In this document: positions 21,303-48,863 of the stretch, piece after piece
How the letters are laid out: each line of letters begins with the position of its first letter
Position numbering within the stretch: position 1 is the first letter of the stretch
The notes under the pieces: model-generated
Told to the model about the DNA's origin: nothing
What the model saw: only the letters and a program-made list of their open reading frames with translations
Database searches by the model: none
Assembly: GCF_024298845.1 (NCBI RefSeq)
Contig: NZ_CP101156.1
Span: 558,001 to 622,000, forward strand
Origin: Natronosalvus amylolyticus
GTDB taxonomy: Archaea; Halobacteriota; Halobacteria; Halobacteriales; Natrialbaceae
DNA length: 64,000 nucleotides
Direction of reading: 5' to 3'
Translations under genes and position numbers: made by a program

Positions 21303-21453
21303 ACCCGGGCAGAGGAAGCCCTCCGTAATGAACGTTCGCGATTAACCGCCGCTATCTCACCACCTGGAGGATGTCACCGATCACCGATCCCACACTCGAG
21401 GGTGTAGCTGCGGGACCGATTGTGTGGAAATCGTCGATGCCTGATAGAGTACC

Positions 21454-21537
21454 TTAGTAGCTAGTAAAACGATGTTCAACCGACCGCGACGCACGCCTGG
21501 AATAGGTGTGTGCACTGACGTTCACTGGCTACTATAG
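21454..21537 (-). mobile_element. MITE-like palindromic element, family 1, copy A
   Basis: 84-bp element in the minus orientation relative to copy D at 45.4 kb. The right end TTCACTGGCTACTATAG is the full 17-bp terminal repeat; the left end (TTAGTAGCTAGTAAAAC) is diverged. It overlaps the 3' end of ribB: the last codons and TGA of ribB lie inside the terminal repeat. No transposase is encoded. Confidence 0.75.
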
Positions 21538-22265
21538 AAACTCTCGAGGACGTCACGCCCCTCGAGGTACACGAAGTCGTGACGCTCGGCATACGACTGT
21601 GCATCCTCGGGAGTCAACGCCTGTCCGGAGGTGTCGTCGAGCATCTCACAGACGACAACCGCTGGCGGAAGGTCGCCTTCTACAGCCAGGGCAACGCCGA
21701 GTTCCGTATGCCCTTCCCGTTGTGCAAGCAGGTCCGGTGCGGCCCGTAGGAGATGGACGTGTCCGGGTACTCTGAACGTCTCCTCGAACACGGTTTCGTC
21801 GGGGTTATTGGCCGCACGTCCGAGTGATCGAATTGTCAATGATCGGTCCGCGTCGGTGATGCCGGTGTACGTCTCCCGGTGGTTGACTGTCAGTGAAAAC
21901 GAAGAACGTTCGTCGTAGCCAAGGTCGTGATCGGTGGTCGCTGGATGATCGACGACGTCGGTGTAAAAGGGGAGGCCAAACGATTCAGCAACTGAATCAC
22001 CGAGTGCGACACAGATCAGCCCGCCAGCGTCGTTTCGGAGGCGAGAAACGGCATCCGGCGTGACCGCATCGGCGTGGTAAATCAGGTCGGTCTCACCCTC
22101 CCGGTCGGCGGCATCGTGAACGAGAATCGGTTCTCCGTTCTCGAGGGCCTCGATTGCATCGTCAACCGTCGAACCGGCGGTGCGCTGGGCACCAGTGCTC
22201 CCCGGTGTGGTACTGGTTGATAACTGTTCACTCCGATGGTTCGTGCTCGTATCTGGTCCGTTCAT
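21522..22265 (-). CDS. ribB: 3,4-dihydroxy-2-butanone 4-phosphate synthase
   Basis: 247 aa. Converts ribulose 5-phosphate to the 4-carbon precursor of riboflavin. Family motifs: EPILVHDAADREGETDLIYHADAVTP (acidic metal-binding DREGETD), a lumazine-synthase-independent layout, and GHVHLLRAAPDLLAQREGHTELGVALAV near the active-site His/Glu. A 38-residue low-complexity N-terminus (Ser/Thr rich) precedes the core. It follows ribK by 5 nt in one operon. The C-terminus ...ESFYSSQ-TGA is formed by the terminal repeat of MITE copy A, so the native end was probably replaced. Confidence 0.93.
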   Translation of the reverse strand: MNGPDTSTNHRSEQLSTSTTPGSTGAQRTAGSTVDDAIEALENGEPILVHDAADREGETDLIYHADAVTPDAVSRLRNDAGGLICVALGDSVAESFGLPFYTDVVDHPATTDHDLGYDERSSFSLTVNHRETYTGITDADRSLTIRSLGRAANNPDETVFEETFRVPGHVHLLRAAPDLLAQREGHTELGVALAVEGDLPPAVVVCEMLDDTSGQALTPEDAQSYAERHDFVYLEGRDVLESFYSSQ

Positions 22266-22270
22266 ATGTA

Positions 22271-22975
22271 TCAGTGATCTCCGACGATTATCGTTACGTG
22301 GCTGTCGTCCGTGAGATCGAATTCGTCACGCAGTTTGTCCGGTGCGATCAATTCGAGTTGATCTTCGTCGTGGTGGGTTCGTTCGGGGGCGATCGTGTGG
22401 GCTGTCTCGTAGCGAGTGCCATCGCTCAATTCGACCGTGGCAGGATGGCAGGCGGCTGGGCCGTAGGTGCGTTCCTCGTCTTCCCAGCCATCGATCGGGA
22501 TCGACTCGAGTGAGGACATCGCACTTCGTCGTCGAATGCTGTCGTCGGTGAGTTCGACGTTGAGTGTCCCGAGAAACGGTTCGTATCCCAGGCGGTCTTC
22601 GAACTGTCGTTTGTACCCCGAAAGTGAAATGTAGTGACGGCCTTCGCCCATCCCGCTCGTGACGGTTCCCTCGAGTTCGATCGTCGCATTGTTCTCGAAA
22701 ATACGCCTGTACGCCTCGTACTCCGAGCGAAGGGCGCTAGTCCCAGCATCGGTTATCGTGATCCACTGTCCGTCGGCGACTGTGTCACGTTCGAGATACC
22801 CCTCGCTCTCGAGTCGCTGGAGGCGTCTGGATGCGGTCTGATTCGACGCGTCCAACTGCTCTGCCAGGACTGAACAGGAGATTTTCCGCTCGCCCGCCAA
22901 TCCACCGTCCAGCGCGAGTAGCTTGAGTACGGCGAGTTCGTCGTACCCGACGGTAGATTGAACAGTCTCGTGCAT
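22271..22975 (-). CDS. ribK: CTP-dependent riboflavin kinase with N-terminal winged-helix domain
   Basis: 234 aa. The N-terminal ~95 residues form a winged helix ([46 protein letters not shown]). The C-terminal part is the archaeal RFK (DUF120) domain: [42 protein letters not shown]. Makes FMN from riboflavin using CTP. Proteins with this architecture (RbkR) are known to act also as transcription regulators of riboflavin genes. The gene heads the ribK-ribB operon, and a 30-bp imperfect inverted repeat lies 25 nt upstream, so autoregulation is plausible. Confidence 0.93.
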
Positions 22976-42352: not shown

Positions 42353-42697
42353 GGAAATCGGGGTCAGGGGCAAGCGGGTGTCGTCTATGTAGACGTTTTC
42401 GTGGGATACCTTATAACTTCAATATCTCGATTCGACTCTGTCGGTGAGTGCTCACTCGAGTGCTATGGGTATTTCGGCCGAATTATCAGTAAACGAAACA
42501 GAACGACCGATAGTAGCCAGTGAAACGAACCCCCACCGATCACGACGCCGTCCTGCGATAGGGTGTGCACTGACTGTCACTGGCTACTAGCGCTCTGCGG
42601 ACGTCGAAGGGATGGCGAGCCGGTATATCTGTCCCTGTTTGGGAGCCATACCGTAACCAATACTTGATGGGCTACGGCTCCAATCGAAAACCTGGCC
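42353..42697. other. Intergenic region holding MITE copy B
   Basis: 345 nt between the J-domain gene and the second PadR gene. It holds family-1 copy B (42510-42590) and otherwise no recognised gene. An A/T-rich patch ACCTTATAACTTC near 42410 may be the J-domain gene's promoter. Confidence 0.5.
42510..42590 (-). mobile_element. MITE-like palindromic element, family 1, copy B
   Basis: 81 bp, minus orientation. The terminal repeats ATAGTAGCCAGTGAAAC and GTCACTGGCTACTAG are near-complete, with GCGATAGGGTGTGCACTGAC in the interior as in the reverse complement of copy D. No coding capacity. Confidence 0.8.
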
Positions 42698-44227: not shown

Positions 44228-44557
44228 CGACGTCGCGGAGACATCGTCCTGAAATCGTACCAGGATTTACATTTTGATAACCTATAGTCGCCAGTGACAG
44301 TCAGTGCACACCCTATCGCAAATGGGCGTCACGTTAGGTGTGTAAATCGTTTCACTGGTCACAGTATTCGTGAGTGCTACGCCAGATTCGAATCCGCTAT
44401 TCTGGCTTTTCATTCTATCCATCCAGGATTAAGTCAGCCACAAGCACATAGAACATCTTACATCAGCTTCAAATGGGCTGTAGTTGAGTATCAGAGTGTT
44501 ACGATGGTAGGTGGTGGACTGTTCGATAGCTGCTGTGGGACAGAGAGTTGCTAAGAT
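44228..44557. other. Intergenic region holding MITE copy C
   Basis: 330 nt. It contains family-1 copy C (44283-44364) and the presumed promoter of the downstream DUF7344 gene. Nothing else is recognised. Confidence 0.45.
44283..44364 (+). mobile_element. MITE-like palindromic element, family 1, copy C
   Basis: About 82 bp, plus orientation. Left end TATAGTCGCCAGTGAC, interior GTCAGTGCACACCCTATCGC, right end TTCACTGGTCACAGTA (diverged). Clearly homologous to copy D. Confidence 0.75.
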
Positions 44558-45076: not shown

Positions 45077-45090
45077 TCGGTGTGTTCTCT

Positions 45091-45174
45091 CGTAGCTACT
45101 GGAACGGTTCACATACCTATCACGGCGCCGTCTTGTGAGAGTGTGTGGACGTCATTTTCAATGGCCACTGTAGG
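45091..45174 (-). mobile_element. MITE-like palindromic element, family 1, copy E (degenerate)
   Basis: About 84 bp, minus orientation relative to copy D. CGTAGCTACTGGAACGGTTC at the left and TTTTCAATGGCCACTGTAGG at the right are diverged terminal repeats; the interior CACGGCGCCGTCTTGTGAGA matches by position. The oldest-looking copy. Confidence 0.55.
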
Positions 45175-45363: not shown

Positions 45364-45449
45364 CTATAGTAGCCAGTGAACGTCAGTGCACACCCTATCG
45401 CAAGCGGGCGTCGCGGTAGGTGTGTAAATCGTTTCACTGGCTACTATAG
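45364..45449 (+). mobile_element. MITE-like palindromic element, family 1, copy D (most intact)
   Basis: 86 bp with perfect 17-bp terminal inverted repeats, CTATAGTAGCCAGTGAA and TTCACTGGCTACTATAG. The interior (GTCAGTGCACACCCTATCGC, GGTAGGTGTGTAAATCG) also has partial dyad symmetry (CACACC/GGTGTG). No coding capacity. Used as the reference copy. Confidence 0.85.
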
Positions 45450-47869: not shown

Positions 47870-48072
47870 GGAAACTGAATAGTGGACGGTGCTCGAGTGA
47901 CAGTTCGTCAGCATCAAACGACACGTGGCACCTAAATCATTTTTATAAGGGAGGCAGGTTGTACTCGGAAAGTGAAAGTGGAAATAGCGGGAAACTCACG
48001 GTCGACAGTTGGTTATCAGAGGTCGTCGCGGCAACTCGAGTTAACACCTTTCGAATGGCCATCGTAGTAGCT

Positions 48073-48157
48073 ATCGTAGCCAGTGAAAGTCAGTGTACAC
48101 CCTATCGCAAGCGGGCGTCGCGTTAGGTGTGTAAACCGTTTTAAGCCCATCTATATC
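48073..48157 (+). mobile_element. MITE-like palindromic element, family 1, copy F (3' end lost)
   Basis: Left end TATCGTAGCCAGTGAAAGTC and interior GTACACCCTATCGCAAGCGG match copy D; the right end (TTTTAAGCCCATCTATA) is diverged. It sits at the end of a minus-strand coding remnant. Confidence 0.7.
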
Positions 48158-48781: not shown

Positions 48782-48863
48782 TATAGTAGCCAGTCAAAGT
48801 CATTGAATACGCTATCGCAAGACGGCATCGCCGGAGCGGTCTAAATCGTTTTGTTGGCTACGA
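48782..48863 (+). mobile_element. MITE-like palindromic element, family 1, copy G (diverged)
   Basis: 82 bp. TATAGTAGCCAGTCAAAGTC at the left and TCGTTTTGTTGGCTACGA at the right; the interior CGCTATCGCAAGACGGCATC is diverged from copy D. It lies upstream of the small membrane protein gene. Confidence 0.7.

Follow-up and report, generated by a model that had tools for sequence, protein, structure and literature searches.

A short mobile repeat supplies the stop codon of ribB and the four codons before it in Natronosalvus amylolyticus

Results

The ribB gene of Natronosalvus amylolyticus ends inside a short mobile repeat. Its reading frame (21522-22265, minus strand; all such positions are those of the window, the whole stretch of 64,000 nucleotides analyzed here) encodes a 3,4-dihydroxy-2-butanone-4-phosphate (DHBP) synthase of 247 residues and closes as DVLESF-YSSQ-TGA, in which the YSSQ codons and the TGA stop derive from the element. 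In the reading we favor, to which we give a probability of about 0.92, the element entered the TA of ribB's own stop codon, and the element end supplies a replacement stop four codons further on, adding the tail YSSQ. The gene is not cut short; its own stop is split and replaced. This reading draws on the element itself and its TA duplication, the element-free ribB of a sister species, the shorter native proteins of relatives, and the same arrangement at the ends of other genes.

The product matches Pfam model PF00926 as a complete DHBP synthase (E 1.3e-52, profile positions 2-190 of 191), receives the same assignment from TIGR00506, and is matched over residues 33-243 to the solved enzyme 1pvw. 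The gene upstream (22271-22975) encodes a protein with a helix-turn-helix (HTH) region and a CTP-dependent riboflavin kinase region (PF01982), and ribB therefore sits in a riboflavin cluster. A second ribB gene, 61% identical, occurs at C5:211045-211713 on a 417-kb contig, and the sister species also has a second copy.

Identification of the repeat

The last 15 bases of ribB belong to an 84-bp element (TATAGTAGCCAGTGA...TCACTGGCTACTATA, with the duplicated TA counted) and form its terminal repeat. The intact repeat TATAGTAGCCAGTGA is found exactly at 21522-21536 on the minus strand, coincides exactly with the last four ribB codons plus the stop, and reads TAT AGT AGC CAG TGA in the ribB frame. 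A preliminary description of this DNA had proposed that an element end supplies these codons, and the element indeed proves real. The ribB copy of the unit, an 80-bp element plus the duplicated TA, spans 21453-21536 on the minus strand (HMM match 21455-21536), and the 15-base end is part of a match of 82-84 bp (nhmmer E 2.3e-17). The far end, at about 21453-21467, has decayed, with CTAGCTACTAAGG in place of CTGGCTACTATA. A near-perfect copy at 45365-45448 (plus strand) serves as the structural reference; this intact copy folds end to end into one long hairpin (z-score -9.06), while the ribB copy with its decayed end forms no such hairpin (z-score -0.90). Further copies in the window lie at 42508-42591 (minus), 44283-44362 (plus, one end decayed), 45090-45172 (minus, diverged), 48072-48143 (plus, partial) and 48782-48863 (plus, diverged).

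Matches to TATAGTAGCCAGTGA far exceed chance. Within the window there are 10 at three or fewer mismatches, against 0.33 expected from shuffled sequence, and genome-wide there are 200 at two or fewer mismatches, whereas the reversed pattern gives 6. Element copies align over 84 bp, TATAGTAGCC...GGCTACTATA; the 85 copies treated here are those within the stretches of genome that were fetched, rather than a genome total. Among 67 near-complete copies, TA is present at one end in 58 and at the other in 62, C precedes the TA in 39, G follows it in 42, and none shows a longer direct repeat outside the TA. Read most simply, the unit is an 80-bp element that has terminal repeats TAGTAGCCAGTGA and duplicates a TA target. 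Empty sites give the grounds for calling the TA a duplication: the sister-genome counterpart of the copy at C1:953551, the only clean empty site among six junction-spanning matches to that genome, reads CAGAT-TA-GTTGTG, and the sister ribB also lacks the element.

The element had been called a MITE. Its anatomy agrees with that name: the unit is short and multicopy, has no coding capacity and no transposase gene, and combines terminal inverted repeats with a target-site duplication and empty sites. The duplicated TA is also what characterizes MITEs derived from IS630/Tc1-mariner transposons; IS630 favors a CTAG target. A parent transposase with these ends was sought at DDE_3 (IS630 type) loci, and only chance-level matches to the element ends were found at the 3 such loci of this genome and at 29 loci from the family (L232-L260). 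That search covered the DDE_3 family, with one locus taken per genome, 32 of 61 genomes having a match and 29 loci scanned.

Some copies occur in compound settings. The sequences beside the copies at C1:780547, C1:3174303 and C1:1286699 belong to another short repeat, present at dozens of sites in the sister genome; nesting of the element within other repeats is therefore frequent. In two other genomes (G026, stretches L261-L289, and G059), copies form like-oriented pairs separated by only a few bases, which suggests that one site received repeated insertions or underwent duplication. An exact terminal repeat also occurs by itself at positions 1031-1045 of one 2-kb stretch (L142) that contains no partner, apparently as a remnant.

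Reading frames at element ends

Insertion at the TA inside a TAA or TAG stop yields TA+T AGT AGC CAG TGA. We read the three frames into 162 element ends. The frame used by ribB adds exactly four residues at 139 of them, and 88 of the 162 give YSSQ. In the next frame, 156 ends bring a stop after no more than two residues. The third frame stays open further and closes within the element at only 74 ends.

Among the copies fetched, at least eight recognizable genes run into an element end. The figure is a lower bound for those copies, as 21 incoming ORFs were translated and the domain scans covered eleven of them, ten submitted to Pfam together (seven with matches, three without) and ribB separately, the remaining ten being mostly short. 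Five genes enter in the ribB frame, namely ribB, thiD, and those for a TrkA_C protein, a SpoIIM-like protein and a NUDIX protein, and gain four residues, mostly (Y/S)SSQ. Three enter in the next frame, where TAG follows after one codon: tmcA, a Gfo/Idh oxidoreductase gene and the gene for a small zinc-ribbon protein. None of the eight uses the third frame. That the repeat carries a stop in the ribB frame and can be tolerated at a gene end, as had been suggested from ribB by itself, is thus seen in eight recognized genes.

When the element is removed on paper, four of the eight genes have the TA within a stop codon: SpoIIM (TAA), NUDIX (TAA), TrkA_C (TAG) and ribB (TAA or TAG, its far end being decayed). 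The oxidoreductase gene recovers a native TAA one codon later, leaving its protein unchanged, and the zinc-ribbon gene would run for five more residues to a TGA; neither thiD nor tmcA recovers a nearby stop when read without the element. The SpoIIM, NUDIX and TrkA_C insertions, with tails SSGQ, YSSQ and SSSQ, are shared with the sister species and so predate the species split, whereas those in ribB, thiD, tmcA and the oxidoreductase gene are absent from it.

These frames invite a wider interpretation, in which the C-TA-G target together with early stops in two frames makes NNC-TAA and NNC-TAG gene ends preferred landing sites for a stop-safe mobile repeat, which would have written recurrent YSSQ-like tails onto unrelated haloarchaeal proteins, some of them kept since before the species split. 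We consider it unlikely, at roughly one chance in eight. Less probable again, and by about half, is that the element actively prefers stop codons, or that its ends were selected to carry stops and so be harmless at gene ends. Of the 162 ends, 139 close one frame within four residues and 156 close another within two, which would fit such selection, as would the placing of all eight recognized genes in those frames and the agreement of a C-TA-G preference with NNC-TAR stops. The terminal repeat, however, must be conserved for mobility regardless, and RUP and MITEAba12, judging from excerpts of their published accounts, are likewise reported to have stops in all frames. The counts are also against it. 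With the 58 genes of the window called by codon usage, coding sequence holds 1286 TA dinucleotides, intergenic DNA 344 and stop codons 20; if coding insertions are lost, 4.7 of 85 copies are expected in stop codons, or 11.2 with C-TA-G weighting, and about 4 clear ones are observed. Preferential insertion into stop codons is therefore unsupported, and since the observed number does not exceed expectation, special targeting need not be invoked.

Comparison with related genomes

The sister-species genome used throughout is probably that of Natronosalvus hydrolyticus AArc-curdl1. Its ribB, 90% identical, lacks the element, and the frame closes as VLETF-TAA. The stretch from ribB to the next gene is 255 here and 175 in the sister species, longer here by 80 bp. 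The right-hand junction cannot be aligned, the spacer having diverged from the sister's and the far element end having decayed. Removing the element on paper leaves the ribB frame with a stop directly after SF, read as TAG or TAA according to whether the last two bases are taken as mutated or lost.

We aligned ribB C-termini in 90 rows, including the gene itself, two paralogs and at least two duplicate loci. The protein ends at aligned position 244 in 77 rows, at 243 in 3, including the sister species, and at 245-250 in 10, one of these being the N. amylolyticus protein at 247. Native RibB in relatives is thus mostly three to four residues shorter than the protein described here, the reverse of the possibility, a longer native protein, that the preliminary description had put up for testing. 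The related alternative, that an ancestral ribB was longer and the element shortened the protein while adding YSSQ, is very improbable: a few rows do equal or exceed its length (one other at 247, three at 249, two at 250), but the nearest relative ends at 243, most rows end at 244, and the paper empty site stops immediately after SF. Chance resemblance of a native YSSQ terminus to the repeat has no point in its favor and may be set aside, since the 15 bases form one end of the nhmmer match described above and a YSSQ end is absent from the other 89 rows, a result that also sustains the earlier claim of a new C-terminus and leaves no element-free relative with the same ending.

We return to insertion into the ribB stop. 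The 84-bp unit would be a non-autonomous mobile repeat, presumably moved by a transposase acting in trans, that inserts at TA, often within C-TA-G. At ribB it most likely entered the TA of an original stop, TTC-TAA or TTC-TAG; from comparison with TTC-TAA in the sister species, the dinucleotide at 21535-21536 would be the first two bases of that stop. The duplicated TA and the first base of the element would then make a TAT codon, after which a ribosome would read AGT AGC CAG and halt at the TGA of the terminal repeat, adding YSSQ. We infer that the insertion persisted because the RibB C-terminus is variable and tolerant. The last invariant residue of the alignment is G236, and in a predicted model of RibB (25 sequences, mean pLDDT 79) the last helix extends over the tail, residues 236-246, with a pLDDT of 76 for the last block. 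The tail is probably neutral.

Distribution of the element

Within the family, 40 of the 61 genomes sampled, belonging to 23 of the 29 genera, contain similar 84-bp elements. They are carried as well by 31 plasmid records, including some from Haloarcula and Halomicrobium. No match to the element was found in phages, a 28-letter element pattern was not found in viral contigs, and the window from 20000 to 50000 gave no match in Rfam.

Two of the plasmids bear on gene annotation. In Natronococcus sp. CG52 (L291, 1501-1512) the annotated start codon of a C-terminal binding protein lies inside the terminal repeat, and this start call is possibly wrong; the element there has extra sequence in its middle. 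In Natronorubrum bangense (L292, 648-1505) an annotated hypothetical protein terminates on the TAG within an element end, the counterpart of ribB in the next frame and in a different genus.

Discussion

The ribB gene offers a clear natural case in which a mobile repeat splits a stop codon and supplies its own, backed by a sister-species gene that lacks the element and by similar events at unrelated genes elsewhere in the genome. A simple rule follows, one that haloarchaeal genomes in general allow to be checked: when the element inserts at the TA of a TAA or TAG stop, the protein gains the same four residues. Annotators should be aware that YSSQ tails on haloarchaeal proteins can be derived from a repeat.

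The event itself is an ordinary one of a known kind, as stops supplied by repeats are already known from BOX and from the QMITEs of Coxiella. Mycobacterial MIRUs have been reported at overlapping stop and start codons. Our literature search found no account of the 84-bp element or of its insertion in ribB.

The comparisons that follow are made by description and draw on excerpts of the papers cited. BOX repeats of Streptococcus pneumoniae, like the present element, overlap the 3' ends of genes and encode stops: 36 of 58 overlapping coding sequences, including folE, mtlD, dnaJ and glgP, receive their stop codon from the repeat, although strong evidence for truncation of the overlapped genes is lacking in that account (PMC3049150). 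BOX differs in that it can exceed 500 bp, is built of boxA and boxC parts, and has a bacterial host (PMC3049150). In Coxiella burnetii, insertions of QMITE1 and QMITE2 in functional annotated genes are all at the 3' end and cause small C-terminal changes, much as at ribB; QMITE1 is longer than the 84-bp element (input hits over 232 bp), the direct repeats of QMITE2 vary by copy, and the excerpted text makes no mention for QMITE of insertion within the stop codon itself, as occurs in ribB (PMC5896051).

Among haloarchaea, the SMR/MITE sequences of Haloquadratum walsbyi are similar in size, about 80-110 bp (HqIRS41 has 80 bp), have terminal inverted repeats unrelated to known transposons, and are in some cases nested in other elements; unlike the 84-bp element with its TA duplication, SMRs are stated to lack target duplications (PMC3119063). 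RUP, Correia and other TA-ended bacterial MITEs have different hosts, and RUP has a proposed insertion-sequence partner. They nonetheless resemble the element of ribB in their length of about 100-200 bp, terminal inverted repeats and TA termini, and they form strong stem-loops and are sometimes fused to reading frames (PMC2229807).
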